A stretch of DNA of 64,000 nucleotides from Verrucomicrobiaceae bacterium E54 (GCA_022548915.1 JAKZES010000003.1:62001-126000), one strand, 5' to 3'. Counted from the stretch's first letter, positions 24,501 to 44,190 are shown. A program made the numbers and translations. The notes: generated from the sequence alone by a model not told the origin.

Positions 24501-24953
24501 GACTACGAGGAATGGGGTGGGGCCTTCCACGCCACCAAGCTCGTCGGCGATGCGTGGTCGATCGGCACCCGCTACACTTTCGCCCGGGCCGAGCTGAGCC
24601 GTTCGTTCCCGGCGCTGACGGCGGCGGGGGTGGCCGGATTCCGGTCGGACGAATCGTCGCAGCTCCACGATGCCGAGGCTTACGTGATCTACAACCACCC
24701 GAGCGGCTGGTATGGCCGCCTGAGCGGACGGTTTCTTTCGCAGGACAACGAGGGCTACGCACCGGTCCGGCCCGGAGATTCATGGACGCAGCTCGACTGC
24801 GCGGTGGGCAGGCGATTCCTGAAAAATCGCGGCGCGTTGGAACTCGGCGTGCTTAACCTCACGGATCGGGATTACCGATTCAACCCGCTCATCACGCTCC
24901 CCGAACAGCCCCGCGAAAGGACCTTCTACATGGAATTCCGGCTCGACATCTAG
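21504..24953 (+). CDS. FecR-TPR-outer membrane beta-barrel fusion protein
   Basis: 1149 residues from the ATG at 21504, which provides a signal peptide (MRIRLLLWLPLALCGMPGNV, FGQ). Residues about 30-190 form a FecR-like domain (KGAAYFFSRTDKEADVETPT, ASLNIRGTEFVIEV). About 230-530 contain tetratricopeptide repeats (for example ALALSPRNAQAISLKGYFAL, ALEIDPALGNAWLGQGLAFF). About 600-1149 are rich in alternating aromatic strands and end with a TonB-receptor-like C-terminus (LGVLNLTDRDYRFNPL, FYMEFRLDI). No plug domain or TonB box is obvious. FecR normally is a separate periplasmic sensor for TonB receptors; here it is fused to the barrel. The product is likely an outer-membrane transporter or assembly protein. 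The next gene starts 74 bp away. Confidence 0.8.
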   Translation: MRIRLLLWLPLALCGMPGNVFGQSGDGGELVVVENQVERSPARTAWRKAVLGEKIGWQEQVRTGELSRAGIELATGGVLRVSELTVLRLQPPKPGQDQRSRIDFSKGAAYFFSRTDKEADVETPTASLNIRGTEFVIEVGDNGTTVVTMIDGAVGLSNAFGAVELASGEQGVAEPGRAPRKTAVLDASEDIQWFLYYPGIADPAGFAGLGPAFAASRKAYAAGDLLQALELLPPPTGRDEHLFASAVKLSSGRIDEVDENLKRAGGGAVADSLRLLMEVVRTPAAQMNGVVAPETPEGRMALSYALQSAGDLEGALEAAKGAVGLSPRFGMAWARVAELEFGFGRNEVAEEAVEQALALSPRNAQAISLKGYFALAGNRIREAREQFARALEIDPALGNAWLGQGLAFFQSSMPDEALRSMTIAAAVEPNRAFLRSYLGKAFAETGRDERAMHELGLAGQLDPGDPTAPLYQALLEQRQSRFNEGIANLERSIELNDNRAIYRSGFLLDQDRAVREANLAALYENAGMTGTSLEEARRSVVSDYLNPAAHLFLSNSVDALRDPRRVSLRYETPWFNELLLANLLSPAGTDLLAQNISQQEYTNLFPVSPFGISNRSLWRGDGEFLSTGTLQGRFDRSSVALDYDIFLADGDRPNRDVERYTAYLQYKQALSDRDSLYFNFKFQRFRGGDLRQLYDPTTFDPDYRVEQEQAPVAIIGYQHEWSPGSRTLALGGLLTDRLRISNRSTTSFAMLIDPLAPAVSTPIGFPSDIDQLRETEVFFGELQHIWSDERQTFLIGTRFDSGRFETENTLSMQPIVGILPGDPFTLRAAPDYQRWVSYAYYTRELVDGLWGTLGLAFDTQDYPLNPSVPPVSAERKSRSELLPKAGLVWTPCNEFTMRLGYARSLGGATFDESVRLEPTQVAGFTQSFRTLINESEVGGLSAPLFDTAGASVLWKLPGRTYLGAEGFVRRAEAARGVGVLGIDSGTLAFDRVLQIEEDLDYEEWGGAFHATKLVGDAWSIGTRYTFARAELSRSFPALTAAGVAGFRSDESSQLHDAEAYVIYNHPSGWYGRLSGRFLSQDNEGYAPVRPGDSWTQLDCAVGRRFLKNRGALELGVLNLTDRDYRFNPLITLPEQPRERTFYMEFRLDI

Positions 24954-25027
24954 ATCGGTGGAAAGCCCGTCCCAGACTCCCGCTCCCGCCGGTGAACCCC
25001 CGGTCTCGGAGTCAACCCAGCATCAAA

Positions 25028-28000
25028 ATGCCTTCCCAAACCCAAGTTCTCCTCACCTTCCTGGCATGGTTTGTCGTGCCGTCGCTTTTTGGCCAGGTCC
25101 TGCTGATCAGTGACCAGCAGGGTTTCCGGACGCTGGCGTCGGAACTCCGCGAAGAAGGTTACGACGTGACCCTGCGCGAGGAGGAGTATGACAACAATTA
25201 CGCCAACCTGCTCGATGCCACCTTCCTCGACTCCTTCGCCGTGATCGTCTACTCGGAGACCGGGTTTCAGTCGGTCGGTTCGGTGATTCCGGCCAATGTC
25301 GCCGCGGGCCTCGAGAACTACGTCAATGCGGGCGGGCACCTGCTGGTCACCGGCAACGACGTGTTCGCGCATCCGGCCGACGGGGCGATGGCCTCGCTGG
25401 TCGGCTCGACCTCCACGGCGGACTACTTCGTCTCGCTCGACACCTGGGTGGTCCCGGACATCGATCACCCGGTTCTCAACGGGCCCTACGGGAACTTCCG
25501 CGGCCAGACCTTCACCGGAATCAACTTCCGCGATTTTTCGGGGGGCTACGACACGGCCGAGCCGAATGTCGCGGCCGGTACCATCGAGCTGGCCACCCTC
25601 GGGAGCCCGCGGGGCACCGGCAAGCTGCTCTTCACCGACCGTCCGGGGCCGGCGGGCAGCGTGACCTTCTGGAATGGCGGGACCGCGGATCCCAACGTGG
25701 ATCCGCAGGACGAGTTGCTGGCGGGGACCGAGACCGGAAGCATCTTCCGCAACTACCTGGCCTCGACCGACGGTCTGCCTGCGGCTCCGGGCGGCAAGGT
25801 CGTGATCACCGAGTTCATGATGGCGCCGGAGGGTTCGGGGAACTCGATCGGCCAGTACATCGAGATCTTCAACGCGGGGCCGACGTCCATCGACCTGGAC
25901 GGATGGAGCATCCGCAAGACCAACACCACCACCGGCCACACGATTTCGGGGTCCGTGGTGGTCGCCCCGGGCACCTACGCGCTGCTCGGGCAGACCGCCG
26001 ACCTCGGAGGCACGCTCGCGACCGGGGTCACCGCCGATTACGACTACGATGACTTCGATTTCCTGTCCGGCGGTAGTGGGCTGCAATTGGTCGATGACCA
26101 GGGCGTGGAGGTCGACCATGTGAATGTCGTCTTCGGGACTTTCTTTCCGGATGCGAGCTACAACGGGGTCGCTCACGTGTTCACCGGAACGGTCGACGAT
26201 GACAACAAGGAGTTTCCCGCATGGGCCAAGGCAATCGCGACGGAGCCCGGCTACGACCCGGGCAACATCGACCTGGGTTCGCCCGGCACGGCCGGGAGCG
26301 ACCAGTCGGCCATCGAGGCCGTTCCGCTGAGCTACTACGTCAGCTTCGATCTGGGCGATCTCGGAACACTGACCGGGGGGGACCTCCTTCAAACTGTTGA
26401 GGCCGGGACTTCGGCCGAGGCGCCAACCTTTGGGGTCGATCCAGGCTGGCTTTTCGCCGGTTGGAATCTCGACTTCTCGACCGTGATCGGACCGATGGTC
26501 GTGACCGCTCAGTATGTGCCCGAGATCTTCCAACTCACCTTCGTCGAGGGAACCAACGGAACGCGCACCGGGGGCGGGCCACTGACCCAGTTTGTCAGCG
26601 TCCTCGACCCGGTGGTCGAGCCGGTGATCACCGCGGATCCAGGCTGGCGGTTTGCCGGTTGGGACACCGACTTTTCGCTGGTTACCAGTGACCTCACGAT
26701 CACCGCACTCTTCGAGGCCGGGCCATCGGCGGTGGCGGGTGGAGATGTCGAGATTGCCGATCTCAATGACGACGATCAGGTTCTGGTGCGCCTCGATGGC
26801 AGTGCCTCGCAGCCGGCCACCGGCACCATCGCGTCGTGGGACTGGACCTGGCCGGGCGGCAGCGCCAGCGGCGAGGTCGTGGATGTGATTTTCCCGGCGA
26901 ATGACCTGGCGATCCCGGTCACGCTGACGGTGACCGACGGAGCGGGCGATACTGCCGTGGACACCCTGAACCTGACGGTCCTGCGCCGGGAGACCGGCCT
27001 GTTCAAGGACTTCGCCGGATTCACGGGAGGCATCGACGACACCTACCTGGCGGGTGACACCCTGTTGGTGGACGGCTCCGATGCGGCAAGCACCGAGGTC
27101 TTTCGACTGACGGCCGGCACCTGGGTGGAGTCGCCGATCACTCCGGGCGGACCCGACCTTGCTCTTGTCGATTCCGATACCATCGTCAGCGGCGATTTTA
27201 CCAATCTTACCGGGTTCACCGTCCACCGATGGAGCGGCGGCGCGTGGATCGGGACCGGCCAAACGATCGTCGGCTCCCTGCCTCCGGTGGACGGCAGCCG
27301 CAAGACCTTCGCCTTCACCTCCGACACGGTGGTGATCGGCGACGGGAACAACGATGGCTCGGCGACCGATGGCGGCCGGGTCGATGTGTTCGAATGGACG
27401 GCGGACACATGGACCCATGCCACCTCCCTGCAGCCCGGCGATGGACTCGGGGTCGGGGCTCGTTACGGGGATGTGCTTGCGGTCGAAGGCGACCTGATGG
27501 TGATTGCCAAGCGCATCGAACTCTTCAGCGGCAGTTACGTCGGTCGCCGGCTCGATGTGTTCCGCCGGGCGGGCGGAAGCTGGAGCTTCGACGAGTCGAT
27601 CTTCTACGACCCGAGCGTTCCAACGTCGATTTCCCGCTTCCTCGAAGACACCGAGCTCGACCTCAGGAACGGGACCATCCTGGCGCGGACCACGGCACCC
27701 GCGACATTCGTGGTGATCGAAGAGATCGCTTCCACTTGGGTGCAGACCGAGATCAGCTATTCGTTCTCTGAGTTTTCCTTCATCAACGGCCTGCATCTCG
27801 ACAGCGATTCGACCGCTTTGATCGCATCGGGGAACGCGGCATTGCGACTCTACGAACGAGATCTGTCGGCTTCCGACTGGACCGGGTTCGCGGGTGCGGG
27901 GAGGCCTCCCTTGGTAAGCTCCTTCACCCGGGCGGGCGATTTTGAATCCGGTCGGGCGGCGATCATCAACGGCTCCTCGGTCCGCCTGCTCATGGATGGG

Positions 28001-31000
28001 TCCACCGGGGAGGACCGGGTCGCGGTCGAGGCGACGGCCAATGCCGGATCGGACATCGCGACCACGAGCTTCGACGGTTCTCCGGTGCGGGTCTTCCTCA
28101 ATGGTGGTGCCTCGAGTCACCCCGACGGTCCCGACAGCCTCACCGCCACCTGGTTGTGGGATGGGGGCAGCGCGACGGGACTGCGGACCTTCGCCGACAT
28201 TCCGGCTTCGGTGACGTCGATCGAACTGGTGCTGACCGACGGACGCGGGGGAGTGGCCAAGGACACCATCAACGTCGACATCATCCAGCCGCCCCTGATC
28301 GATGCCGGAGTGGATCGGTCGGTGGTCGATGTCGATGCCGACGGCTCCGTTCGACTGAATGTCAGCGGTTCGGTCCTTTCCCAGGATGCTCCGGTGGTGT
28401 CGTGGACGTGGCGCTGGACAGGCGGGTCCTTCAACGGCCAATCCGGAACGATCACGCTGACCGAGGCGGCGCAGGGTCAGCCGGTCACGCTCGAAGTGAT
28501 CGATGCCAACGGCTTGTCGCGTCAGACTTCCTTCCACTTTTCCCTCCTGGATGCCGATCCGCAGCCCGACATCATCACGGCGGCGGACGGCGAGTACGGG
28601 GACATGTTTGGTGCGGCGGTGTCGATCGATGACGGGGTGGCGCTGGTGGGTGCTCCCGAGAAGGAGTTTGGCGGCACGGTGCTCGGGGCGAGCTACCTGC
28701 TTGAGGACGTCACCGGGAACTGGCAGCAGATTCCGCTGCCCATGGCGCTGCGCCAGGGGGAGTCGGTTCTGGTCGAGGGCGATGAGGCCCTGGTGGGGGC
28801 GCCGTCCGACAACAGCGATGGATCCGGCGCGCCCGGGTCGGTCGAGGTCTACCGGAAGGCGAACGGAAACTGGAATTACCACGCGAGCCTCGTGCCGGTG
28901 GATCCGGCGACCGGTTTCCCGCGCACGGGTCTCGAGTCCGACGGGGATTTCGGCCTCTCGATGGACCGGGACGGCGACTTGCTGATCGTGGGGGCGCCGA
29001 CTTCGAACTCGAATGACGGACGGGCGTTCGTGTTCGAGTTGGTCGCAGGCGAGTGGGAGCAGGTGGCGGAGATCAATCCACCGGCCTTTGCCACGACCGA
29101 AGGATCTCCGGGCTTCGGGGTCGCAGTGGCGATTCACGGAGACTTCGCGGTGGTTGGAAGCAAGGTCTATCAGGGTAACCTCAATTCGGGCGCGGCCTTC
29201 GTCTATGAGCGTGATGCCGCGGGAGCGTGGAGCTTCGTGACCCACTTCGAAAGCGACAACGTCAGCGACCCTGGTATCACCCCCTTCGACCGCTTTGCGT
29301 ATGCCGTGGACATCGGCGAGACCGAGTTGCTGGTCGGAGCATCGGGGGACGACGAGGGCGTGAAATCGGGGGCGCTCTACCGCTACTCGCTCGTTTACGA
29401 CGCCATGTCGGACACCCGCGCATGGAGCCGCGTGGAAAAGATTGCTTCACCGGCCAACGGCTTCGGCTCAAGCATCGCGCTGGAGGGCGCGGCGCTTGCC
29501 GTGGCGGCGTGGTCGGAAGCCGCCGGCGGGCTCCGTGGGGCGGTCTACACGTATCTTCTAACGGGAGGGACCTGGCAGCAATCGGGCTATCTGCCGATGA
29601 ACACCTCGATCGACCCCGGGGTCGCCAGCAGCTCCTATCTCGGGTTGAGGGAGGCGTCCCTGGATCACGATGGCAACCATCTCATTGTCGGAGCGCCCGA
29701 GGCCTTTGATTCGTCCATCGTCCGGGGGAATGGACGAGCCTACATCTACCGCAATTTCGCCGGCCTCGACCCGGATGCCAACTTCGAGCCCTTGGCGGAT
29801 GCCGGTGCGGACATTCCGGCGGTGGACACCATCGTCCGGGGCCCCGCGCCGGATTACGAGATCATCGAGCCGCTCGGTTCCGAGGAGGTGCTGCTGGATG
29901 GCAGCGGTTCCTCGGATCTTGAAGACAGCATCGTTTCATGGGAGTGGAACTGGAATGGTGGCAGCGCGACCGGCGAAACGGTCAGCGCCCGTTTCCCGGT
30001 CGGGACGACGACGGTCACGCTGACCGTGACCGATGACCAGGGAGTCGTGAACAGCGACACCGTCGATGTGATCGTGTCGCTCGCCCAGGTCGCCCCCGAC
30101 CCGCTGGCGGATACCACCGGCAATACACTCACGGTGAACCTGCCGGTGGCCGGGGCGAAGTGGCGGCTTTCCTCGGAGTTCGAGTGGCACGACAGCGGCC
30201 ACACGATCACCCAGGGCATCCTCGCCGACGCGAGTTATCGGCTCGAGATGCTGGCCTATCCGGGTTCGCCCGAAATTCTCAGCGAGTTGATCCTAACCGA
30301 GAGCGATGGCACGACGACGCTGAGCCCCGCCATCGATCCGCCGTCGCTACCGGCCGAGAACGGGATCATCGGCTTTCCCGAGAATGCGGAGGGTTTCGGT
30401 TGGCGACTGGTCGGCGAAACGTCGTTACGCAACGCGGTCGAGAACAACGACGGCATTGCCGACTTCTCCGATGTGAGTCTTCCACTTGGCACCTACCGCA
30501 TCGAGTTCAAGCCGGTGGCCGGGTTCGCGACCCCGCCGTCGCGACTCGTGACCGTGGTGTCCGGTACGACGCACTTCACCTCCAGCGGCTACCAGCAGCT
30601 CGCCAGTTACGATCCGGCCAAAACCTTCGAGCAGGTCGTGCCCCCGCAGCAACTCGGCAATCCCAATCACTTCACCGGCATGATCCTTACCCGGCTGGGA
30701 AGGGGAACGGGCACCGTGGTCTCGGAGCGCGTCGTCCTCACCGCCGCCCACTTGTTCTTCGACGAGAACGGCCTCACCTTCGAGGAGGTTGAGTGGTTTC
30801 CGCGTCAGCAGCAGGGCGAGTATCAGGCGGAGCCGGTGAGTCCCCGTGGCATCCTCTACCGCACCAGCTACGCCAAGCTCGTGGCACCCGATACCGTGCC
30901 GGATGAAGTGACCTCGCTGCCGGACGACGATCAGGAGGTCGATTTCGCGGTGCTCTATTTCAACACCGACAACGCCTGGACCAGTGGGGAAGCCGGGTTT

Positions 31001-32068
31001 CTTGAATCCTCGGCGCAGAAGAACTGGCTGACGGGTACCGAGCCGAAGCTCGCCGTGGGCTATCCTCAGCGCAGCCAGCCGTTTCCCCAGCGCGGGACTC
31101 TCTTCGAAAAGGACCTGCTGCAGCCGCTCACCCCGCTGGACGCGAATTCCCCGCCCAAGCTGTACTCCACGGATGAACTGTCCGGAGACGGGGGTGCCAG
31201 CGGCAGTGCGCTCTTCGTCCAACCCGCGGGCGCTCCGGCACCGTACCCGGCCGCGGTTCTTCTCGCGGGGCAGGGACGCGCCGTCTATCGGGTGATCGAC
31301 CAGGACGTGACCCGGATGATCAAGGACGGCGAGGACGCGGCGTCCGGAAACGACGAGGTGCTCGACAGCAGTTCGTCCTTGGTCGGATTCGGCGGGCTCG
31401 GAGGCTTCACCACGCTGGCCGTCCAGATCACGCCGAACGAGACCTTGGCCGCCGCGCGCTGGAGCATCACGCCGGATGTCGGCAGCGGCTACACGAATGT
31501 CATGCCGGGCGACCGCGTCGCCTTCAACTCGAACTGGGAGAGCTTCACCGTGAGCTTCAGCGACGTGCCGGGTTATGCGACGCCGGAGCCCCTGTTCTAT
31601 CTGAAGGAACAGGTCAACTCCGGGGCGACGAACACCTACTCGGTGGTTTACGAGCCGCTCTCGAGCTACGAGATCTGGCTTCGGGACAACGGCATCGGGA
31701 GCGACTCCGCGGACGACGACCGGGACTCGCTCGAGGCGCTGGTGGAGTATGCGCTCGACCGCGATCCTGGCGTGTCGGACTACCTCGCGCCGATCCGGAT
31801 GGTGCAAAATCCCTCGCAGGACACATTCGCCGAGTTCGAGGTGTATGTCAGCGCGGTGGCGGATGGCATCCGCTACGAGGTCCAGGTCGCCAACGACCTC
31901 GGTGACTTTGCCACCGGCACCAATGTCCTGACCCTGCGGACCCTGACCAAGGCCGACGGCACTTCGGACTACCTGGTGATTCCCGACACCCAACCGATCA
32001 GTGCCTCGAACACGCGCTTCGGGCGGGTGGTCATCACCCACGACCGCAGTCTATCCACCGCTCCCTGA
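25028..32068 (+). CDS. Giant exported multi-domain protein with PKD, FG-GAP-like and trypsin-like protease domains
   Basis: 2346 residues from the ATG at 25028, which yields a signal peptide (MPSQTQVLLTFLAWFVVPSL, FGQ). Approximate order: ThuA/DJ-1-like N-terminal domain (20-240), lamin-tail domain (257-385, VVITEFMMAPEGSG), two GW-type InlB-like repeats (435-564), PKD (568-653), a propeller-like stretch, two PKD domains (998-1172), FG-GAP-like repeats (1177-1578, FGAAVSIDDGVALVGAPE), another PKD (1581-1684), then a trypsin-fold domain (1858-2098). The catalytic triad is visible: His1908 in LTAAH, Asp1972 in VDFAVLYF and Ser2058 in GGASGSALF. The C-terminal end resembles the terminal modules of two other large exported proteins here. 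Surface-located proteolysis is inferred. A TGA stop ends it cleanly and glsA follows after 29 bp. Confidence 0.82.
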   Translation: MPSQTQVLLTFLAWFVVPSLFGQVLLISDQQGFRTLASELREEGYDVTLREEEYDNNYANLLDATFLDSFAVIVYSETGFQSVGSVIPANVAAGLENYVNAGGHLLVTGNDVFAHPADGAMASLVGSTSTADYFVSLDTWVVPDIDHPVLNGPYGNFRGQTFTGINFRDFSGGYDTAEPNVAAGTIELATLGSPRGTGKLLFTDRPGPAGSVTFWNGGTADPNVDPQDELLAGTETGSIFRNYLASTDGLPAAPGGKVVITEFMMAPEGSGNSIGQYIEIFNAGPTSIDLDGWSIRKTNTTTGHTISGSVVVAPGTYALLGQTADLGGTLATGVTADYDYDDFDFLSGGSGLQLVDDQGVEVDHVNVVFGTFFPDASYNGVAHVFTGTVDDDNKEFPAWAKAIATEPGYDPGNIDLGSPGTAGSDQSAIEAVPLSYYVSFDLGDLGTLTGGDLLQTVEAGTSAEAPTFGVDPGWLFAGWNLDFSTVIGPMVVTAQYVPEIFQLTFVEGTNGTRTGGGPLTQFVSVLDPVVEPVITADPGWRFAGWDTDFSLVTSDLTITALFEAGPSAVAGGDVEIADLNDDDQVLVRLDGSASQPATGTIASWDWTWPGGSASGEVVDVIFPANDLAIPVTLTVTDGAGDTAVDTLNLTVLRRETGLFKDFAGFTGGIDDTYLAGDTLLVDGSDAASTEVFRLTAGTWVESPITPGGPDLALVDSDTIVSGDFTNLTGFTVHRWSGGAWIGTGQTIVGSLPPVDGSRKTFAFTSDTVVIGDGNNDGSATDGGRVDVFEWTADTWTHATSLQPGDGLGVGARYGDVLAVEGDLMVIAKRIELFSGSYVGRRLDVFRRAGGSWSFDESIFYDPSVPTSISRFLEDTELDLRNGTILARTTAPATFVVIEEIASTWVQTEISYSFSEFSFINGLHLDSDSTALIASGNAALRLYERDLSASDWTGFAGAGRPPLVSSFTRAGDFESGRAAIINGSSVRLLMDGSTGEDRVAVEATANAGSDIATTSFDGSPVRVFLNGGASSHPDGPDSLTATWLWDGGSATGLRTFADIPASVTSIELVLTDGRGGVAKDTINVDIIQPPLIDAGVDRSVVDVDADGSVRLNVSGSVLSQDAPVVSWTWRWTGGSFNGQSGTITLTEAAQGQPVTLEVIDANGLSRQTSFHFSLLDADPQPDIITAADGEYGDMFGAAVSIDDGVALVGAPEKEFGGTVLGASYLLEDVTGNWQQIPLPMALRQGESVLVEGDEALVGAPSDNSDGSGAPGSVEVYRKANGNWNYHASLVPVDPATGFPRTGLESDGDFGLSMDRDGDLLIVGAPTSNSNDGRAFVFELVAGEWEQVAEINPPAFATTEGSPGFGVAVAIHGDFAVVGSKVYQGNLNSGAAFVYERDAAGAWSFVTHFESDNVSDPGITPFDRFAYAVDIGETELLVGASGDDEGVKSGALYRYSLVYDAMSDTRAWSRVEKIASPANGFGSSIALEGAALAVAAWSEAAGGLRGAVYTYLLTGGTWQQSGYLPMNTSIDPGVASSSYLGLREASLDHDGNHLIVGAPEAFDSSIVRGNGRAYIYRNFAGLDPDANFEPLADAGADIPAVDTIVRGPAPDYEIIEPLGSEEVLLDGSGSSDLEDSIVSWEWNWNGGSATGETVSARFPVGTTTVTLTVTDDQGVVNSDTVDVIVSLAQVAPDPLADTTGNTLTVNLPVAGAKWRLSSEFEWHDSGHTITQGILADASYRLEMLAYPGSPEILSELILTESDGTTTLSPAIDPPSLPAENGIIGFPENAEGFGWRLVGETSLRNAVENNDGIADFSDVSLPLGTYRIEFKPVAGFATPPSRLVTVVSGTTHFTSSGYQQLASYDPAKTFEQVVPPQQLGNPNHFTGMILTRLGRGTGTVVSERVVLTAAHLFFDENGLTFEEVEWFPRQQQGEYQAEPVSPRGILYRTSYAKLVAPDTVPDEVTSLPDDDQEVDFAVLYFNTDNAWTSGEAGFLESSAQKNWLTGTEPKLAVGYPQRSQPFPQRGTLFEKDLLQPLTPLDANSPPKLYSTDELSGDGGASGSALFVQPAGAPAPYPAAVLLAGQGRAVYRVIDQDVTRMIKDGEDAASGNDEVLDSSSSLVGFGGLGGFTTLAVQITPNETLAAARWSITPDVGSGYTNVMPGDRVAFNSNWESFTVSFSDVPGYATPEPLFYLKEQVNSGATNTYSVVYEPLSSYEIWLRDNGIGSDSADDDRDSLEALVEYALDRDPGVSDYLAPIRMVQNPSQDTFAEFEVYVSAVADGIRYEVQVANDLGDFATGTNVLTLRTLTKADGTSDYLVIPDTQPISASNTRFGRVVITHDRSLSTAP

Positions 32069-32097
32069 CGACTTCCGTTCCGACGATCCCACGACCC

Positions 32098-33927
32098 ATG
32101 AACGCACCCCTGCCCCCGATTCAAAAGATACTGGAAGGCCTCCATGCCGAACTGATGGAAAACCGCGGCGGTGAAGTCGCAACCTACATTCCCGAACTGG
32201 GGAAGGCCGATCCCGAATGGTTCGGCGTCTGCCTGGTGACCGCCGACGGGCAGGTCTATCAGGTCGGCGAATGCGGTCAGCAGTTCACCATCCAGTCGAT
32301 TTCCAAGCCCTTCGTCTACGGCATCGCGCTGGACGACCACGGCAAGGACGCCGTGCTGGAAAAGGTCTGGATGGAGCCGTCCGGCGAGGCCTTCAACGCG
32401 ATCAGCCTCAGGCCCGGCACCGGCAAGCCGGCCAACCCGATGATCAACGCCGGGGCGATCACCTCGAACTCGATGGTGGCGGGAGACGGCGTCGAGGAAG
32501 TCGTCGGCCGGATCAAGCAGGTGCTCGGGACTTACGCGGGTCGCGAACTGACGATCGACGAATCGGTCTATCGCTCGGAAAGCGAGACCGGGCATCGCAA
32601 CCGCGCGATCGGCTACATGCTGCGGAACTTCGACATCCTCGAGGAGGATCCGACGGACTGTCTCGAGGCGTATTTCATGCAGTGCGCCATCTCGGTGAAC
32701 TGCCGCGATCTCGGCATGATGGCGGCGACGCTTGCGAACGGTGGCGTCAATCCATGCACCGGCAAGCGGGCGGTGAGTCGCCAGCACGTCGAGAACATCC
32801 TCAGCGTGATGGGCTCCTGCGGGATGTACGACGCGGCGGGCGAATGGATCTACAATGTCGGGATGCCGGCGAAGAGTGGCGTCGCCGGGGGCATCCTCGC
32901 GGTGCTGCCGGGACAGCTCGGCATCGGGGTCTTCTCCCCGCGTCTCGATCCCTGCGGCAACAGCGTGCGGGGCATCGAGGTGTGCCGCGGGATCTCCCGC
33001 AAGTTCGGGCTCCACATGTTCCAGGTGCCGCAGCTTTCCACTTCGGTGCTGCGGCGGGTCGGTAGCCTGATGCAGACCCGCTCCAGCCGCCTGCGCTCGA
33101 AGGCGCAGACCCGCAAGCTCAAGGAGTCGGCCGGCATGGTCCGGGTGCTTGAATTGCAGGGTGACCTGAACTTCGGCACGGCGGAGTTCGCGATGCGCCA
33201 GCTCACCGAGGACGCTGCGGGCGTGCGCGAGTTGGTCCTCGATTTTGCCCATGTCACCCGGCTCGACTCGAGCGCGACCGGGGTGCTGTCACTGGCCTTC
33301 GCGAGCTGGTTGGAATCCGGACGGCGCATCTCGATCTGCCGTTGCGAGCGGTTCCCGTCGCTGCGGGAGATCATCGAGGCGGAGGCTTCCGACCTCAGCG
33401 ACAAGGCGGAGTTCTTCGACGACATGCCGGCGGCTCTTGAGGAGGTCGAGAACCGAATACTGGAGGAAGCCGGCCTGCGCCGTCACAGCTCCGAGCGCGT
33501 CGGACTCGAGTGCTGCTACCTGCTGGAGGGATTCACGGTGAAGGAGCTCGAGTTCATCCGGGGCGTCCTCGAGCCGGTCGCCTTCCCCGAAGGAAGCAGC
33601 CTGATGAATGTCGGCGACGAGCCCGACGGCATGTATTTCCTGATGCGGGGAAAGGCGAGTGCCTGGATCACCACCGAGGGCGGTCTCCAGCGCCGGGTCG
33701 CGACCTTTTCCCCGGGGATGAATTTCGGGGAAATGGGCCTGCTCGACGACAGTCCACGCTCGGCTGAGATCCGCGCCGACAGCGATCTCGAGACGCTGAA
33801 ACTCACCAAGGACGGATTGCGGAAAATGGGCACCGACGTGCTGGCCACCTTGCTGGCCAACCTGACCCGGATCCTGGCCGATCGATTGAGGGAGGCCAAT
33901 GCGGAGCTTTCCCAGCTGCATTCCTGA
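32098..33927 (+). CDS. glsA: Glutaminase fused to STAS and cyclic-nucleotide-binding domains
   Basis: 609 residues. Residues 1-310 are a serine-dependent beta-lactamase-like glutaminase, with the catalytic SISK motif (Ser67, Lys70), NPMINAGAI, and the GVAGGILAVLPG segment. It hydrolyses glutamine to glutamate and ammonia in the cytosol. Residues about 346-445 form a STAS domain (LDFAHVTRLDSSATGVL). Residues about 479-600 form a cNMP-binding domain with a complete phosphate-binding cassette, FGEMGLLDDSPRSAEI, including its Glu and Arg. Standard glutaminases are about 310 residues, so the tail is regulatory. The adenylate cyclase gene overlaps its 3' end by 29 bp, strongly suggesting local cyclic-nucleotide control. 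Confidence 0.93.
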   Translation: MNAPLPPIQKILEGLHAELMENRGGEVATYIPELGKADPEWFGVCLVTADGQVYQVGECGQQFTIQSISKPFVYGIALDDHGKDAVLEKVWMEPSGEAFNAISLRPGTGKPANPMINAGAITSNSMVAGDGVEEVVGRIKQVLGTYAGRELTIDESVYRSESETGHRNRAIGYMLRNFDILEEDPTDCLEAYFMQCAISVNCRDLGMMAATLANGGVNPCTGKRAVSRQHVENILSVMGSCGMYDAAGEWIYNVGMPAKSGVAGGILAVLPGQLGIGVFSPRLDPCGNSVRGIEVCRGISRKFGLHMFQVPQLSTSVLRRVGSLMQTRSSRLRSKAQTRKLKESAGMVRVLELQGDLNFGTAEFAMRQLTEDAAGVRELVLDFAHVTRLDSSATGVLSLAFASWLESGRRISICRCERFPSLREIIEAEASDLSDKAEFFDDMPAALEEVENRILEEAGLRRHSSERVGLECCYLLEGFTVKELEFIRGVLEPVAFPEGSSLMNVGDEPDGMYFLMRGKASAWITTEGGLQRRVATFSPGMNFGEMGLLDDSPRSAEIRADSDLETLKLTKDGLRKMGTDVLATLLANLTRILADRLREANAELSQLHS

Positions 33928-36046
33928 TGACCCAGCCCCGCACATCCCCGAGCGACCCGAGGTGAGCAAACCGCGCTGGAACCGTCGGCTCAAGCGCCTG
34001 GGTGCCACACTCCTCATCGGGGCGCTGGCTTCGACCATGGGCGTCCTGTTGCTGGACCGCGGCCCCGGCCTCGGGCTCCAGCGCCTCAGCTACGACCTGC
34101 CGTTCCGCTTCACCGAGAGCGAGCCGCCGGACGAACTCGTGCTCGTCTACCTCGACGAGGCGACCTACACGGACCTCGACCAACCGCTCAGCCAACCGCT
34201 CGACCGCCGCTTCCACGCGGAGCTGACGAAGCGACTGACGGCTGTCGGGGCGCGCACGATCGTCTTCGACATCCTCTTTCACGACTCCCGGCCGGAGGAG
34301 GACGAGCCGTTTGCCCGCGCCATCGAAGCGCACGGACGGGTCGTCCTGGCCGGCGAACGGATGCGCAGCCGCGGGGGCTCCTCCGACCGCGACAGTCTGC
34401 TGCTGGCCACGCCGGACCTGCGCCGGGTGGCGGCCGGGTGGGGGCTGACCGCGGTGCCGCGCGACTCCGACGACGTGATCCGCCGGGTTCTGCCGGTGAT
34501 CGAGACCCCCTTCGGACCCCGGCCGAGCCTTGCGGAAGCCGTCCGGCGCCTGGAGACCGGGGACGAGAATCCACCGTCGATCGCGGCCCCCATGCTCCAT
34601 CATTACGGTCGTGCGGGCACTTTCCCGGGCTACCGGCTCAGCGATGTCCTCGGCGGCGGAACCATTCCGGAGGACGCTTTTCGCGACAAGATCGTGATCG
34701 TCGGCGCGCGCCAGAACGCGGGAGGTTTCGATGCGGGAAAGGATCTTTTTCTCACCCCCTACTCGGCCATCCCGATTGAGGATCCGGCGACCGGCACCCG
34801 GGTGCTGCGGCTGACGCCCGGGGTGGAAATCCAGGCGACGGCGATGGGCAACGCACTCGAAGGAAGCTGGATTGTCCGGCTCGATCCCGGGGTCGAGAAA
34901 TGGATCGTCGTCTTGCTGCCCTTCGCTTTCGCAGGCCTGGCCTGCCTGCTGCCGCCCATCCGCGGCGGCCTGCTCTGTCTCCTGCTCGCCACCGGCGTGG
35001 GCGTGGCGGGAACGCTTGCCCAGCAAATGGGCGGCGTGCAGTCCGCCTGGGCCATTCCCGCCTTCGCGCAGGCCCCGCTGGTGCTGGTGATGGCCCTCGG
35101 AGCCCACTATTTGATCGAATATTCCGCGCGCTGGAAGCTCCGCCGCGCTTTCCGCTCCTACATGTCCGAAGAGCAGGCGCGCCAGATCGATGAGGACGAG
35201 GTCAGCCTCGAACTGGGTGGCAGGGAGGTCGAGGCCACCATCCTCTTCAGTGACCTCGAGGGGTTCACGGCGATGTCGGAGGGGCTGCCGCCGCAGTCGG
35301 TGTCGAAGGCGCTGATCAGTTACTTCGAGAGGGCCACCGAGGGCATCCTCGACAACGACGGCACGATCATCAAATACGTCGGCGATGCGGTGATGGCGAC
35401 CTGGGGAGCCCCGCTCAAGGTCGACCGCGAGGCCGACCGGGCGATCGATGCGGCGATTCAGATGCAGAGGGCGAGCGCCCGCCCGATCACTCTCGAAACC
35501 ACCGGAGGCAAGGTCGAGAAAGTCCTGGGAACCCGCGTGGGGATCAACCGCGGGCCGGGTCTGGCCGGCAACCTCGGCAGTCGCCGCCGCTTCGACTACT
35601 CGGTGATCGGCGACACCACCAACACCGCCGCCCGGCTCGAGGGGCTGAACAAGATGCTCGGCACTTCGGTGCTGGTCTCCGAGGCGGTGCTGGACGCGTG
35701 CACCGAGCCGGACCGGTTCCTGACCCGGCGGATGGGGAGCTTCGTGCTGAAGGGCAAGAAGCAGGGCATCGGCGTGTTCGAAGTGATGGGTGAGCGAGGG
35801 GATGCCGCACAGGCCTTCCGCCAACGGCAGGAGGCCTACCTGATCGCCTATCAGGAGGGCTTGGGCGCCTTCGAGTCCGGCGACCTGATGGCTGCCCGCG
35901 AGGCTTTCCTGGAGGCGAAGCTCCTGCATGACTTTTTTCCCGAGGACCCGGCATCGCGGCTTTTTCTGGATGCGATCGAGTCACTGGGATCCGAGGTTCC
36001 AAAGGAGCAGGCGTGGCGGGGCGAGGTCGTGCTCAGCTCCAAATGA
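33899..36046 (+). CDS. CHASE2-domain adenylate/guanylate cyclase, membrane-bound
   Basis: 715 residues if the ATG at 33899 is used; it is preceded by a GGGAGG stretch and lies inside the end of glsA. A GTG at 33962 would shorten it by 21 residues. An N-terminal membrane segment (ATLLIGALASTMGVLLL) leads into an extracytoplasmic CHASE2 sensor domain (ARTIVFDILFHD). Three more membrane helices follow around residues 325-410. The class III cyclase domain begins near 440 with both metal-binding aspartates (Asp452 in FSDLEGFT, Asp496 in YVGDAVMATWGAP) and the YSVIGDTTNTAARLEG motif. A short TPR-like tail ends the protein. Substrate ATP is more likely than GTP, by the IGD motif. It probably signals to the cNMP domain of the neighbouring glutaminase. 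Confidence 0.9.
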   Translation: MRSFPSCIPDDPAPHIPERPEVSKPRWNRRLKRLGATLLIGALASTMGVLLLDRGPGLGLQRLSYDLPFRFTESEPPDELVLVYLDEATYTDLDQPLSQPLDRRFHAELTKRLTAVGARTIVFDILFHDSRPEEDEPFARAIEAHGRVVLAGERMRSRGGSSDRDSLLLATPDLRRVAAGWGLTAVPRDSDDVIRRVLPVIETPFGPRPSLAEAVRRLETGDENPPSIAAPMLHHYGRAGTFPGYRLSDVLGGGTIPEDAFRDKIVIVGARQNAGGFDAGKDLFLTPYSAIPIEDPATGTRVLRLTPGVEIQATAMGNALEGSWIVRLDPGVEKWIVVLLPFAFAGLACLLPPIRGGLLCLLLATGVGVAGTLAQQMGGVQSAWAIPAFAQAPLVLVMALGAHYLIEYSARWKLRRAFRSYMSEEQARQIDEDEVSLELGGREVEATILFSDLEGFTAMSEGLPPQSVSKALISYFERATEGILDNDGTIIKYVGDAVMATWGAPLKVDREADRAIDAAIQMQRASARPITLETTGGKVEKVLGTRVGINRGPGLAGNLGSRRRFDYSVIGDTTNTAARLEGLNKMLGTSVLVSEAVLDACTEPDRFLTRRMGSFVLKGKKQGIGVFEVMGERGDAAQAFRQRQEAYLIAYQEGLGAFESGDLMAAREAFLEAKLLHDFFPEDPASRLFLDAIESLGSEVPKEQAWRGEVVLSSK

Positions 36047-36962: not shown

Positions 36963-37157
36963 CTGCCGGTCTCGTCCCGGGCGGGAAAATCCGGGGAAAG
37001 CTCCCGGAGGTCGCGAGCCTGTCTGCCGAACCGGCGCTTCTGTGGCGATTCTTGTCACAGGGAGCGCCGATTGTTTCCAATAGTATCCAAGAAACGGATC
37101 GCCTCGGTGTCTCTCACTCGGTGGGAGCCTCCGGGGTTCGTTGGACTATTTGGAATC

Positions 37158-40100
37158 ATGAAAGGGAAACTGATTTTGGTGATGGCGACGATGGCCCTTG
37201 GCCTCGTCATGGGAGCTGAACCTGCGGAGCAACGCGAGAAGGCGCAGGCCTTGCAGAAGGAGGGCAACTGGAAGGATGCGCTCGAGATCTACGAGGTCCT
37301 GTTGAAGGAAGTGGACGACGCGAACAGCGGCGGAGATCTCGCCGCAGCCGTCCAGTCATTGCGCCAACTGCAGAAAACCCCGCTGCAGGACGAACTGGTC
37401 GAGACCGCGGTGGAAAGGCATCCGGAGAACTACGACGTGCTCGTCCAGGCGGCGAATGCCTACCAGAATGGTCCCGCCTGGGGCCGTCTGCTCGACGGGG
37501 AATTCCGGCGGGGCGAGAACCAGGGCGGGGGTGCCTGGATCGACGCCAGCGCCCGCGACCGGGTCCGCGCCATGCAGCTCCAGCTGCGCGCCATCGAAAA
37601 CGCGCCCACGGCAGAGGCGAAGATCAGCTCCCTTTCCCAGCTGGCCCATCTGGTGAGCATGAACCGGACCCACTCGTCGACGCTCTGGGCCCTGGCGGTC
37701 AAGACGCCGCTGGATTCCCTGCCGGACTACGGCGACGACCGGGGATTGTCGAGCGGATCGGGAGCCCCGGTCGATGACGAGGGCAATCCGCTCTATTTCT
37801 CGGTGCCCGAAAGCTGGCAAGCGGCGGCAAATGACGGCGAACGCTGGCGCTGGCTCCGCAGCGAAGTGCGCCGGCTGATGCAGGAGGCCTCCCCCGACAT
37901 GATGCCGAGGCGGGCTGCCTATCTCGACCTCGAATGGGCCAATTTCCTGCGCCAGAACTACGGCGTGGGCACCCTCGCCGGGTTCGGCTGGTGGGGCCGG
38001 TCCCAGGGGGCCGACGAGCACAAGGGCATCCTCCAGGCGCACACTCTCGGGGAATCCGAGACCTTGGCGAAGTTGGCAAATGGCGTGAAGCGCTTCGAAC
38101 TCCGGGAGGACTACCAGTTCATTCCGCTCTACCGAAAGCTTTACCAAGGTGAAAGCCGGCTTGCGGACGCCGGCGATGCGCTGGTGCAGGTCTTTCTCGA
38201 CCGCCGGCAGTTCGTCGCCGCTGAGAAGGAGCTGAGGGAGGTGATCGAGCGTCATGGACCCGGTTCCGACAATGCCCGCAGGAAGCTGCTCAAGCAGATC
38301 ACCGGCGACTGGGGGCGTTTCGAAAGCGTCCCGATGTTCGGTGCCGGCAAGAAGCCGAGCGTGCCCTTCGTCTATCGGAATGCCGAGACCGCCGCCTGCG
38401 AACTGCACCGGATCAAGCTGGATCTCGTGGTCGACGATGTCTTCGAATACCTGGAGAGCAATCCGCGGGAGATCGACTGGGAGAAGGTGAACCCGGGAAT
38501 GATCGGCCAGCAGCTCGTCGACAAGGACCGCAGCCGCTATCTCGGGGAGCAGGTCGCGGAATGGGAGGTGGAACTGGAGCCCCGCAAGGGGCACTGGGAC
38601 ACCCGGAGCGACATCAAGCTGCCGACGGGTGAGGCGGGCGCGTATCTGCTGAAGGCGACCGCCGGCGACGGCAACACCTCGTGGATCGTCGTCTGGATCT
38701 CGGACACGGTCCTGCTGCGCCACCAGACCAAGGAGAACCACATCTACTACCTCGGCGATTCGGCCAAGGGCGGGGCCCTCGCCGGCGAGGTCGAGTTCCT
38801 CGGCTTCAAGGTCAACCGGCGCGAGGGCGCCAAGGGCCTGATCCGCAAGTTCGACATCGAGACCCGGCGTTTCACCCGCGAGGTCGGCGAGGACGGCCTG
38901 CTGGAGCTGGAGAAGGGGACTTTCGACAACAACTTCCGCTGGATGGCGGTCGGGCGCGGCGACGCCGGCCGGATGGCGCTGATGGGTTTCCAGAACTACT
39001 ACTGGAGGGACCATCACTGGCAGACTTGGCAGACGGATCGCTCCTATGGGATCACGGACCGGCCCGTGTACCGACCGGGGCAGCCGGTGAAGATCAAGTT
39101 CTGGAGCCGGTCCGCCAGTTACGACCTGGGCGACGAGTCCCTCTATGCCGGGAAGTCCTGCACGATCGAGATTCACCATCAGAACAGCGGCAAGGTCCAC
39201 GACAGCGGTGCGCTGGTGGCGGACGAGTATGGTGGGGTGGAGATGGAGTTCGAACTCCCGGAGGATGCCAAGCTGGGGCAGTACTACGTCCGGATCGACG
39301 GCGTTGTGCCGGCTGGCAACATCAGCTTCCGGGTCGAGGAATATAAGAAGCCGGAATACGAGGTGACGGTCGACGGACCGAAAGAGCCCGTTGCTCTCGG
39401 CGAAACGATCGAGGCGACGGTGAAGGCGACCTACTACCACGGCGCGCCGGTCACCGAGGCGACCGTGAAGGTCAAGGTGCAGCGCTACAGCCACACCGAG
39501 CGCTGGTTCCCGGTCGGACGCTGGGACTGGCTCTACGGCAAGGGCTACTGGTGGTTCGGGCAGGAGTATCCCTGGTATCCCGGCTGGCACGATTGGGGTT
39601 GCATCCCGCCGACACCGCCGTGGTGGGGCGGCAACCGGTGGACGCCGCCGGAGCTGGTGCTCGAGCGCGAGTATCAGGTCGACGCCGACGGCACCGTGAA
39701 GGTCGAGATCGACACCTCGATCGCGAAGCTGGTCCACGGCGACATGGACCATCGCTACGAGCTCACCGCCGAGGTGGTCGATGCCTCGCGCCGGACGATC
39801 GTCGGCAGCGGCAGCGTGCTGGCGGCACGCCAGCCCTTCACGGTGACGACCTGGCTCGACCGCGGCTACGCGCGACCGGGTGAACCGGTGACGCTGTCGT
39901 TCGCCGCCAAGACGCTTGACGGGAAATCCGTGAAGGCGGCCGGGACGGTGAAGCTTTTCCAGATCCTTCCCGACCAAGGAGGCAAGGTGAAGGAGGAGCT
40001 GGTCAAGGAATGGAAGGCCGCGACCGGAGCGGACGGCGAAGGAGAGCGGGTCTTCAAGGCACCCGCCGCCGGGCAGTACCGCTTGTCCGTGACGCTCACC

Positions 40101-43100
40101 GATTCCAAGGGCAACGAGCAGGAGGGGGCGACGATCTTTGTCGTCAGGGGCATGAAGGACAAGGGACAGGGCCTGCGCTTCAACGATCTCGAGCTGGTGC
40201 TGGACAAGAAGCACTACGCCCCGGGGCAGACCGCGAGGCTGCTCATCAACACCAACCAGCCGGGCGCGACTGTGCTGCTCTTCCTCCGGGGCTCAGGAAA
40301 CGTGGCGGAGGCCTTGGAGGTCATCCAGATGGACGGCAAGTCGGAGGAGTATGAACTCAAGCTCGAGAAGCGCGATATGCCCAACACCTTCGTCGAGGCG
40401 GTCACGATTGCGCGCGGCCGGGTGATCACGCAGGTGCGGGAGATTGTGCTGCCTCCCGAGAAACGACTCCTCACCGTCGAGGTCATCCCCGAGAAGACCA
40501 AGTACAAGCCCCGCGAGAAGGGGAAGGTGACCATCCGGCTCACGGATGAAACCGGAGAGCCCTTCGTCGGTAGCACGGCGGTCACGGTCTATGACAAGAG
40601 CCTCGAGTACATCTCCGGCGGCAGCAACGTGCCGGAGATCAAGAGCTTCTTCTGGAACTGGAAGCGCGGCTACTCGCGCGGATCGCTCCAGCACTCGCAG
40701 GTGCTCGGAGGCCACCATCTGGCCAGGCCGAAGAGCACCCAGATGCAGTCGCTGGGGCGGTTCGGCCACATGATGGCGGACCAGTTGACCGAAACGCTGG
40801 ATTTGTCCGCCAATGGCGTTCGGAGGGAGATGATGTTCAAGGCGGGTGCCGCCCGGGCGATGCCCATGCCCATGGCTTCGGCGGTGCCGGGGATGCCGGT
40901 GGAGGAGGCGGCGATGGACATGGCTGCCGCGGTGGATGACCTTGCCAACGCGGCCGGCGGCGAAGCGGCGATGCCTGAAGTGATGGTCCGGTCCGAGTTC
41001 GCGGACCTCGTGAAATGGGCCGGTTCGGTCGAAACCAACGACAAGGGCGAGGCCGTGATCGACCTCGAGATGCCGGACAACCTCACCACCTGGAAGATCA
41101 AGACCTGGGCGGTGGGCCACGGCACACGCGTCGGCGAGGGCAGTGCGGAGATCATCACCAGCAAGGACCTGATCGTCCGGCTCCAGGCCCCCCGGTTCTT
41201 CATCGAAAGCGACGAGGTCACCCTCAGCGCCGTGGTTCACAACTACCACGATGAAGCCAAGGAGGTCGCCGTCAGCCTTGAGATGGATGGCGGCAATCTC
41301 ACCACCGACGGCAGCACCCAAAGCACGGTCGTGATTCCCGCCGGCGGCGAGGAACGGATCAACTGGACCGCCGTCGCCAGGAAGGAGGGCGAGGTCACGA
41401 TCCGGATGAAGGCGATCGCCAAGGATGATTCGGATGCGATGGAGATGACCTTCCCGGTCTACGTCCACGGCATGGCCAAGACGGAGTCATGGAGCCGTGC
41501 GATCGCCCCCGACGGAAGCTCCACCACGATCGAGTTCGAAGTGCCGGAGAAGCGGCGCCCGGCGGAGACCCGCCTGGAGATCCGCTACTCGCCGACGATC
41601 GCCACGGCGATGGTCGATGCGCTGCCTTATCTCGTCAGCTATCCCTACGGCTGCACCGAGCAGACGCTGAACCGCTTCGTGCCGACGGTGATCACGCAGA
41701 GGATCCTGCGCGAGATGGACGTGGATCTGGCGGCCGTCCGCGACAAGCGGGTAAACCTGAATCCCCAGGAGATCGGCGACGCCAGGGAGCGCGCGGCGCA
41801 GTGGCAGCAATGGAAAGACAATCCGGTCTGGGATGAGGAAGAGGTCAGCCGGATGGTCCGCACCGGCGTGCAGCGCCTCGCGGAAATGCAGAACCGCGAC
41901 GGTGGCTGGGGCTGGTTCTCGGCTTACGGCGAGCATTCCTATCCGCACACCACGGCGGTGGTGGTCAACGGTCTGCTGATCGCAAAGGAGAACGGTGCCG
42001 AAATTCCGGAGGACATGCTCCAGAGCGGGGTGAAGTGGCTCAAGAAGCACGAGAACAAGGAGGCGGAGAGAATCCGCATGTGGGAGAAGCGGAAGCGCAA
42101 CACCAAGAAGAGTGCCGACGCCATGGATGCCATGGTGCGCGAGATTCTCGGCAAGGCCGGGGTGGATCACGAGGAGATGCTCGGCTTTCTGGTCCGCGAC
42201 AAGGTTGGGCTTCCGGTCTATGCCAAGTGCCTGCTGGGGCTGGAGCTTCACCGGGTCGAGCGCGTCGAGGACCGCGACGCGGTGCTCAGGAACATCGAGC
42301 AGTTCCTGAAGAAGGATCCCGAGAACCAGTCGGCCTATCTCGCGCTCGGGAACCGCAGCTACTGGTGGTACTGGTATGGCAACGAGTTCGAGGCCCATGC
42401 TTCCTACCTGAAGCTGCTGGCGGCGGTGAAGCCCGACAGCGAGCAGGCGAGGGGGCTGGTGAAGTATCTCGTCAACAACCGCAAGAACGCCACCTACTGG
42501 AAGTCGACCCGCGACACCGCCTACTGCATCGACGCGCTGGCATCCTACCTCCGAGCCAGCGGCGAGACGGCACCGGATCTCGAGGTCGAGATCCTTCTCG
42601 ATGGCAGGACGCTCAAGACGGTGAAGATCTCGAAGGAGAACCTGTTCAGCTTCGACGGCACCGCCATCGTCGCCGGCGACATCCTCGGCGGCGGCAAGCA
42701 CACGATCGAACTGCGCAAGAAGGGATCGGGACCGCTCTATGCCAATGCCTACCTGACGGTCTTCACCCTCGAGGACTTCATCACCAAGGCGGGTCTCGAG
42801 GTCAAGGTGGAGCGGCAGTTCTACAAGATGGTCCCGGTCGACGCGACCGAGGCGGTGGCCGGATCGGACGGCCAGGCGCTCACGCAGAAGCGCGAGAAGT
42901 ACGAGCGCGTCCCGCTGAAGACCGGCGACACGGTGACCAGCGGCGACCTGATCGAGGTCGAGCTGTCGATCGAGAGCAAGAACGACTACACCTACCTGAT
43001 GTTCGAGGACTGGAAGGCCGCCGGGCTGGAACCGGTCGAGGTCCGCAGCGGCTACAACCCGAATGGACTGGGGGCCTTCATGGAACTCCGCGACGAGAAG

Positions 43101-43271
43101 GTCGCGCTGTTTGTCCGGAACCTGCCACGCGGCCGCCACAACCTCAGCTACCAGCTCCGCGCCGAGATCCCCGGCAAGTTCAGCGCCCTGCCCACCCGCG
43201 CCGAGGCGATGTATGCCCCCGAACTCAAGGCCAACTCCGACGAAATGAAGATCGGCGTGCGGGACCGGTAG
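37158..43271 (+). CDS. Alpha-2-macroglobulin family protein with thioester and Trp-rich insert
   Basis: 2037 residues from the ATG at 37158, which gives a signal peptide (MKGKLILVMATMALGLVMGA). An upstream in-frame start at 37071 would precede it with unrelated sequence. A helical N-terminal region of about 400 residues is followed by macroglobulin domains (TDRPVYRPGQPVKIKFWSR near 632, KKHYAPGQTARLLINTNQPG near 1015), an A2M domain near 1270-1370 and a thioester motif GCTEQ with Cys1499, then the thioester domain (DGGWGWF) and a C-terminal receptor-like domain. Bacterial macroglobulins trap proteases. It lacks a lipobox, unlike many bacterial relatives. Residues about 776-832 contain 11 tryptophans. 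No penicillin-binding protein partner is adjacent. Confidence 0.92.
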   Translation: MKGKLILVMATMALGLVMGAEPAEQREKAQALQKEGNWKDALEIYEVLLKEVDDANSGGDLAAAVQSLRQLQKTPLQDELVETAVERHPENYDVLVQAANAYQNGPAWGRLLDGEFRRGENQGGGAWIDASARDRVRAMQLQLRAIENAPTAEAKISSLSQLAHLVSMNRTHSSTLWALAVKTPLDSLPDYGDDRGLSSGSGAPVDDEGNPLYFSVPESWQAAANDGERWRWLRSEVRRLMQEASPDMMPRRAAYLDLEWANFLRQNYGVGTLAGFGWWGRSQGADEHKGILQAHTLGESETLAKLANGVKRFELREDYQFIPLYRKLYQGESRLADAGDALVQVFLDRRQFVAAEKELREVIERHGPGSDNARRKLLKQITGDWGRFESVPMFGAGKKPSVPFVYRNAETAACELHRIKLDLVVDDVFEYLESNPREIDWEKVNPGMIGQQLVDKDRSRYLGEQVAEWEVELEPRKGHWDTRSDIKLPTGEAGAYLLKATAGDGNTSWIVVWISDTVLLRHQTKENHIYYLGDSAKGGALAGEVEFLGFKVNRREGAKGLIRKFDIETRRFTREVGEDGLLELEKGTFDNNFRWMAVGRGDAGRMALMGFQNYYWRDHHWQTWQTDRSYGITDRPVYRPGQPVKIKFWSRSASYDLGDESLYAGKSCTIEIHHQNSGKVHDSGALVADEYGGVEMEFELPEDAKLGQYYVRIDGVVPAGNISFRVEEYKKPEYEVTVDGPKEPVALGETIEATVKATYYHGAPVTEATVKVKVQRYSHTERWFPVGRWDWLYGKGYWWFGQEYPWYPGWHDWGCIPPTPPWWGGNRWTPPELVLEREYQVDADGTVKVEIDTSIAKLVHGDMDHRYELTAEVVDASRRTIVGSGSVLAARQPFTVTTWLDRGYARPGEPVTLSFAAKTLDGKSVKAAGTVKLFQILPDQGGKVKEELVKEWKAATGADGEGERVFKAPAAGQYRLSVTLTDSKGNEQEGATIFVVRGMKDKGQGLRFNDLELVLDKKHYAPGQTARLLINTNQPGATVLLFLRGSGNVAEALEVIQMDGKSEEYELKLEKRDMPNTFVEAVTIARGRVITQVREIVLPPEKRLLTVEVIPEKTKYKPREKGKVTIRLTDETGEPFVGSTAVTVYDKSLEYISGGSNVPEIKSFFWNWKRGYSRGSLQHSQVLGGHHLARPKSTQMQSLGRFGHMMADQLTETLDLSANGVRREMMFKAGAARAMPMPMASAVPGMPVEEAAMDMAAAVDDLANAAGGEAAMPEVMVRSEFADLVKWAGSVETNDKGEAVIDLEMPDNLTTWKIKTWAVGHGTRVGEGSAEIITSKDLIVRLQAPRFFIESDEVTLSAVVHNYHDEAKEVAVSLEMDGGNLTTDGSTQSTVVIPAGGEERINWTAVARKEGEVTIRMKAIAKDDSDAMEMTFPVYVHGMAKTESWSRAIAPDGSSTTIEFEVPEKRRPAETRLEIRYSPTIATAMVDALPYLVSYPYGCTEQTLNRFVPTVITQRILREMDVDLAAVRDKRVNLNPQEIGDARERAAQWQQWKDNPVWDEEEVSRMVRTGVQRLAEMQNRDGGWGWFSAYGEHSYPHTTAVVVNGLLIAKENGAEIPEDMLQSGVKWLKKHENKEAERIRMWEKRKRNTKKSADAMDAMVREILGKAGVDHEEMLGFLVRDKVGLPVYAKCLLGLELHRVERVEDRDAVLRNIEQFLKKDPENQSAYLALGNRSYWWYWYGNEFEAHASYLKLLAAVKPDSEQARGLVKYLVNNRKNATYWKSTRDTAYCIDALASYLRASGETAPDLEVEILLDGRTLKTVKISKENLFSFDGTAIVAGDILGGGKHTIELRKKGSGPLYANAYLTVFTLEDFITKAGLEVKVERQFYKMVPVDATEAVAGSDGQALTQKREKYERVPLKTGDTVTSGDLIEVELSIESKNDYTYLMFEDWKAAGLEPVEVRSGYNPNGLGAFMELRDEKVALFVRNLPRGRHNLSYQLRAEIPGKFSALPTRAEAMYAPELKANSDEMKIGVRDR

Positions 43272-43742: not shown

Positions 43743-43754
43743 GGGAGCAGGTGG

Positions 43755-43997: not shown

Positions 43998-44003
43998 ATC
44001 AAA

Positions 44004-44024
44004 ATGATATTGATACAATATCAT
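44004..44024. promoter_or_regulatory. Operator palindrome of the toxin-antitoxin operon
   Basis: ATGATATTG-ATA-CAATATCAT is a perfect 9-bp inverted repeat with a 3-nt centre, ending 6 bp upstream of the antitoxin start codon. It is AT-rich within GC-rich surroundings. The position and symmetry fit autorepression by a ribbon-helix-helix antitoxin. Confidence 0.8.
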
Positions 44025-44190
44025 CGTGCAATCCGATTTTCCGTCTGAGCGGCGCAATAGGAGGGGTGATGAATCGGATGGAGGCGCATCGCTGGTTGTC
44101 CGAATGGTCCGGCGGCAAGCGCTTCAGCCTTCCTCATGAGGGCTCGCTTTGTAGCTGCCGCCCGGGAAATTCCCTGCTAACCCAAATGGC

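Follow-up and report, generated by a model that had tools for sequence, protein, structure and literature searches.

A four-gene locus encodes a glutaminase–STAS–cNMP protein and a CHASE2 adenylate cyclase

The window, that is, the whole 64,000-nucleotide stretch of DNA that was analysed, contains the following features around the glutaminase gene:

21504–24953, plus strand: F2, protein with a FecR domain, TPR repeats, a TonB-receptor-like beta-barrel and a signal-like N-terminus; putative outer-membrane receptor
25028–32068, plus strand: F22, giant secreted or surface protein with LTD, PKD and FG-GAP repeats and a trypsin-like protease domain (Pfam; ORF from 24992)
32098–33927, plus strand: glutaminase–STAS–cNMP protein (Gls-STAS-cNMP), 609 aa; glutaminase at residues 25–308, STAS at 346–418, cNMP-binding domain at 494–577
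33724–33765, plus strand: phosphate-binding cassette (PBC) FGEMGLLDDSPRSA, residues 543–556, including E545 and R554
33962–36046, plus strand: CHASE2-class III adenylate cyclase, 694 aa from GTG 33962 (Pfam; probable start, placed by homology)

The domain content of the glutaminase and cyclase genes agreed with the preliminary description, which had reported a glutaminase carrying STAS and cNMP-binding domains and a complete phosphate-binding cassette, followed by a CHASE2 adenylate cyclase gene. The 609-aa ORF was matched by Pfam to Glutaminase (2.7e-117), STAS (3.5e-9) and cNMP_binding (8.3e-16). Its Glutaminase A domain (PF04960) has the glutaminase fold with a Ser-x-x-Lys nucleophile and the conserved substrate residues, with Q66, S67, K70, N117, E161, N168, Y192, Y244 and V262 all kept, and the cassette in its cyclic-nucleotide-binding domain (PF00027), FGEMGLLDDSPRSA, is intact with Gly-Glu and Arg in place. 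In the cyclase, the CHASE2 sensor (PF05226) lies in the N-terminal part, and the class III adenylate cyclase domain (PF00211) was recognized by the active-site residues FSDLEGFT, IKYVGDAVMATW and FDYSVIGDTTNTAARL. Both metal Asp residues (FSDLEGFT, YVGDAV), the adenine-type Lys and Asp (IKYVGD, FDYSVIGDT) and the catalytic Asn and Arg (NTAARL) are present, completing an adenylate-type set, and the enzyme is predicted to make cAMP. For F2, Pfam gave FecR (1.5e-11), TPR_2 (2e-9) and TonB_dep_Rec_b-barrel (1.2e-6); the ORF reaches back to 21393, with the MRIRLLLWLPLAL start at 21504 being more likely.

Elsewhere in the window, 37071–43271 encodes a bacterial alpha-2-macroglobulin-like protein (A2M, MG2 and bMG10 domains), and 43326–44057 holds two small minus-strand ORFs whose N-termini resemble, by eye, a PIN-domain toxin and a ribbon-helix-helix antitoxin.

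The cyclase probably starts downstream of the glutaminase stop codon

The cyclase gene had been described as beginning 29 bp inside the end of the glutaminase gene, with possible translational coupling of the two genes. ATG 33899, on which that reading depends, is just the mechanically first start codon of the cyclase ORF, and the purine-rich stretch ahead of it encodes the conserved LREAN motif. Pfam returned CHASE2 at 1.4e-36 and Guanylate_cyc at 1.3e-20 for the ORF at 33899–36046, and 1.3e-36 and 1.2e-20, respectively, for the protein starting at GTG 33962. The sister genome G002 has no ATG at the matching position; there, the glutaminase stop closes the cyclase frame, and the cyclase begins MAKPRWNRR after that stop. 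The cyclase homologues of G008, G009 and G011 have a GTG start (VSKTRW or VTKRRW) that overlaps the stop of the upstream surface-protein gene, and no alternative start codon was found in these three genomes between the preceding in-frame stop and this GTG. The equivalent codon in the window is GTG 33962 (VSKPRWNRR), 34 nt past the glutaminase stop, and this, not ATG 33899, is probably the cyclase start. The 29-bp overlap is probably not real, given that relatives point to GTG 33962 as the cyclase start, and translational coupling by it was rejected on the start-codon homology with G002, G008, G009 and G011.

The cNMP domain of the glutaminase retains a complete nucleotide pocket

Both in sequence (E 1.9e-83) and in structure, the best match of the glutaminase was Micrococcus luteus Mglu (3agd, 3if5), which resembles it in joining a glutaminase to a C-terminal STAS-like region and differs in that the match stops before the cNMP region. 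The structural match had a VIA Z of 41.7 over 380 residues at an rmsd of 11.2, which suggests another domain arrangement or an uncertain model. When the full-length protein was the query of a fold search, the matches listed were to glutaminase and STAS only. The mycobacterial acetyltransferase Pat, in which a cAMP-binding domain is fused to the enzyme, sets a precedent in bacteria for direct enzyme control by cAMP. The Pat model matched solely via the cNMP domain; both proteins are enzymes fused to a cNMP domain, but the enzyme type differs.

A SulP transporter of the sulfate-permease family in G096 (L166 639–2858) also bears a STAS–cNMP tail, 34% identical to that of the glutaminase over residues 316–607, and the tail thus appears to be a transferable regulatory module not bound to one enzyme. 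STAS domains usually mediate protein–protein contacts, which, together with the SulP tail, would fit a cAMP-responsive scaffold or tethered protein, in which cAMP shifts the location or partner of the glutaminase via STAS and not its catalytic rate. We regard this as rather unlikely: no partner protein was identified, and the catalytic residues are conserved in 99 of the 101 Gls-STAS-cNMP proteins, which argues that the glutaminase enzyme itself is under selection.

Within the same order, G544, E545, R554, S555 and A556 are invariant among 24 relatives. All 19 Gls-STAS-cNMP genes close to a CHASE2 cyclase retain the PBC Gly-Glu-Arg, and 19 of the other 81 have lost it; 18 of those 19 losses belong to Actinomycetota, a group with no CHASE2-labelled member, and the association of PBC retention with a CHASE2 neighbour (nominal Fisher p 0.02) is accordingly confounded by phylogeny. 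That the Actinomycetota members keep the domain despite loss of the PBC arginine could point to a degenerate structural domain, as in the many CRP/FNR-like proteins without cyclic-nucleotide binding; with Gly-Glu-Arg invariant in the order and kept in every gene near a CHASE2 cyclase, such degeneration is very improbable. With its pocket residues complete, the cNMP domain is predicted to bind cAMP; alternatively, cGMP could be its ligand, or its role could be mainly structural.

The glutaminase occurs within cassettes of surface proteins and a CHASE2 cyclase

G002 has the gene order F2–F22–glutaminase–cyclase, identical to that of the window, and G008, G009 and G011 carry F2–F22–cyclase without the glutaminase (type-a cassette), the surface-protein stop overlapping the cyclase GTG exactly at the position occupied by the glutaminase in the window. 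In G001, a contig starts within the F22 C-terminus, with the cyclase directly after it. F2 homologues adjoin CHASE2 cyclases within the genus, as well as at one Rhodocyclaceae locus, and F22 homologues sit between F2 and the cyclase in G002, G008, G009 and G011. Because the F22 C-terminus (ITHDRSLST) and the cyclase N-terminus, which abut in these relatives, flank the glutaminase here, its insertion at the F22/cyclase junction is the simplest reading: the older partners of the cyclase would be the FecR-TPR-barrel protein and the giant surface protein, found together without the glutaminase in congeners, and the glutaminase would most simply have joined this older cassette.

A second arrangement in the genus (type-b cassette), with a homologous FecR-barrel protein called F2b, has the order F2b–CHASE2 cyclase–F4–giant F6–glutaminase–cNMP–DUF3307–cNMP and was found in G007, G009, G010 and G016. 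The type-b block of G008 has extra genes before cNMP-DUF3307, and the second stand-alone cNMP gene was not found there; that of G013 spans two contigs, and in G026 the gene order is rearranged (Gls–F2b–cyclase–x–F4–F6). Type-b F2–cyclase blocks without a glutaminase within the stretch read were seen in G026 (contig C49), G042 and G086. The existence of cyclase cassettes lacking the glutaminase implies that it is at most one of several cyclase outputs.

F4, present in most type-b cassettes, is a conserved protein of about 400 aa (L045 8586–9833 and homologues) to which Pfam gives no match. The window's genome has a homologue at C189:25564–26637, on the same contig, some 68 kb upstream and outside the window.

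Proximity of glutaminase and cyclase genes recurs across phyla

A gene-neighbourhood search had been suggested as a check on conservation of the pair in Verrucomicrobiota, and the adjacency was found to recur even beyond that phylum. In 80 Gls-STAS-cNMP loci sampled from Verrucomicrobiota, Pseudomonadota, Planctomycetota, Actinomycetota, Cyanobacteriota and Myxococcota, a class III cyclase lay within 10 kb in 12, against 1.54 expected (~8-fold), and within 500 bp in 6, against 0.29 expected; the expectation was based on the cyclase density of each genome for 37 genomes and on the mean of these for the remaining ones. As the loci are partly related (e.g. three from Cyanobium/Synechococcus) and kinship was ignored, the Poisson P values come out too small, and the enrichment is strong but approximate. 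By Pfam, the cyclase is of the CHASE2 type at L082, L083, L092, L108, L110, L115, L134 and L150; AAA-type cyclases lie near the glutaminase at L089 and L101, and one with a broken frame at L093. CHASE2 cyclases beside or near the glutaminase occur in several Verrucomicrobiota lineages, in Beta- and Gammaproteobacteria and in Cyanobacteria, with the cyclase adjacent upstream (L082, L092), divergent (L110) or convergent (L108). Parasulfuritortus cantonensis, which is in culture, has a CHASE2 cyclase gene immediately ahead of its glutaminase gene. At L115, from a betaproteobacterium of the Rhodocyclaceae, the order is Gls–F2–266 aa–CHASE2 cyclase, with partners homologous to those in the window. 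On a tree of 101 glutaminase proteins, in which L140, without a Pfam scan, was put with the CHASE2 loci on account of its Cyanobium relatives, the CHASE2 label needs 11 changes, 10 of them forced by well-supported branches. Chance adjacency was ruled out by the enrichment together with the recurrence among unrelated bacteria. Among about 11 plain glutaminases without the tail in relatives, a small sample judged at a strict cut-off, none shares a contig with a listed CHASE2-type cyclase.

The majority of Gls-STAS-cNMP genes lack a cyclase within 10 kb, and so a cyclase neighbour is not required. These distant glutaminases, found in many genomes, the type-a cassettes lacking the gene, and its position right behind a giant surface-protein gene in type-a and type-b cassettes alike would fit a shared accessory island only, where the cyclase signals elsewhere and the glutaminase is merely co-transcribed with surface proteins. 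Against this stand the recurrence of the association across phyla, with varied neighbours and orientations and well above expectation, and the usual presence of some cNMP-domain gene near CHASE2 cyclases in the family. We consider co-transcription of this kind an improbable explanation, and the maker–receiver link between cyclase and glutaminase is well supported by comparative genomics.

Comparison with known CHASE2 receptor systems

The general plan of F2 and the cyclase resembles that of Sinorhizobium meliloti, where NsrA, an outer-membrane beta-barrel protein of about 1200 aa with the barrel in its second half, works with the inner-membrane CHASE2 cyclases CyaK, CyaD1 and CyaD2 (PMC7529298, PMC13001267). 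As there, a barrel protein (F2, with FecR, TPR and TonB-type barrel domains and a predicted membrane location) is encoded with a CHASE2 cyclase, whereas the S. meliloti output is the CRP-type transcription factor Clr and the adjacent receiver in the window is a glutaminase. A comparison of F2 with Sinorhizobium plasmids matched FecR proteins, one at 26% over 488 aa, which was not identified as NsrA and has no cyclase near its locus. In Campylobacterota, clusters of a CHASE2 cyclase, a FecR outer-membrane protein, a TPR protein and a phosphodiesterase resemble the receptor half of the window's cassette (FecR/TPR/CHASE2) but differ in that no glutaminase or giant surface protein is mentioned and a cAMP phosphodiesterase is present (PMC9239204); none was seen in the window's cassette. 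On a Methylocystis plasmid, a FecR protein is followed directly by a cyclase. Although cNMP-fused glutaminases are widespread in genomes, no discussion of a glutaminase with STAS/cNMP domains, or of one as the output of such receptor clusters, was found in the open-access papers searched, and the new part appears to be the glutaminase as a recurrent partner of CHASE2 cyclases.

A proposed relay from the cell surface to glutamine hydrolysis

In most of the bacterial cAMP signalling known so far, the end point is a CRP-type transcription factor. Since the proximity of Gls and cyclase genes in unrelated bacteria far exceeds chance, an outside signal may here control glutamine breakdown directly via cAMP. 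In the model that we favour, the barrel protein F2 and the protease-like surface protein F22 would detect a signal at the outer membrane or beyond it. The topology of CHASE2 and the example of NsrA/CyaK suggest that this signal would then pass through the periplasm and reach the cyclase in the inner membrane at its CHASE2 domain. This enzyme, whose adenylate-type active site is complete, would then produce cAMP, which would occupy the C-terminal cNMP domain of the glutaminase and, via the STAS linker, alter its activity or assembly, so that glutamine would be converted to glutamate and ammonia on demand. We judge this full model, running from F2/F22 sensing through the CHASE2 cyclase and cAMP to glutaminase control, to be probable, and with it the reading of the four genes at 21504–36046 as one signalling cassette; that cAMP controls the activity of the glutaminase is an inference. 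A complete relay from outside to metabolism with no transcription step, in which a FecR-barrel/protease complex acts through the cyclase and cAMP on a glutaminase switch, is put forward tentatively, its chances lying somewhat short of even. If it is true, cAMP would act on nitrogen metabolism directly and fast, with the glutaminase as its effector, and Gls-STAS-cNMP proteins, which recur in pairs with cyclases, would be nitrogen enzymes under cAMP control, forming a class that is widespread and so far undescribed. The CHASE2/FecR receptor clusters are a large class, most of them orphans, and the glutaminase offers them an output that can be tested at once.

The preliminary description had proposed a direct pairing of the two genes as a dedicated switch. 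The recurrent pairing and the kept pocket agree with part of that proposal; exclusivity does not hold, and a simple two-gene switch is too narrow since F2–F22–cyclase cassettes occur without the glutaminase. Two further class III cyclases and four further cNMP genes in the window's genome also speak against exclusive wiring, and cAMP diffuses. By Pfam, none of the five cNMP proteins of this genome has a CRP-type DNA-binding domain, and its second CHASE2 cyclase is convergent with a small stand-alone cNMP gene (L161 890–1543 and 1972–3930). In the ten genomes compared, a cNMP-domain match lies within 12 kb of 14 of the 16 CHASE2-labelled cyclases, whose labels are partly similarity-based and several of which are orthologues of one another. 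Only two cNMP domains were found in G002, a single contig, each at most 1.5 kb from a CHASE2-type cyclase. In G008 (contig C31, L070 8531–10000), the type-a F2–F22–cyclase cassette faces a convergent gene for an MscS-type channel that bears a cNMP domain; this channel, too, is a candidate receiver of cAMP next to a CHASE2 cyclase.
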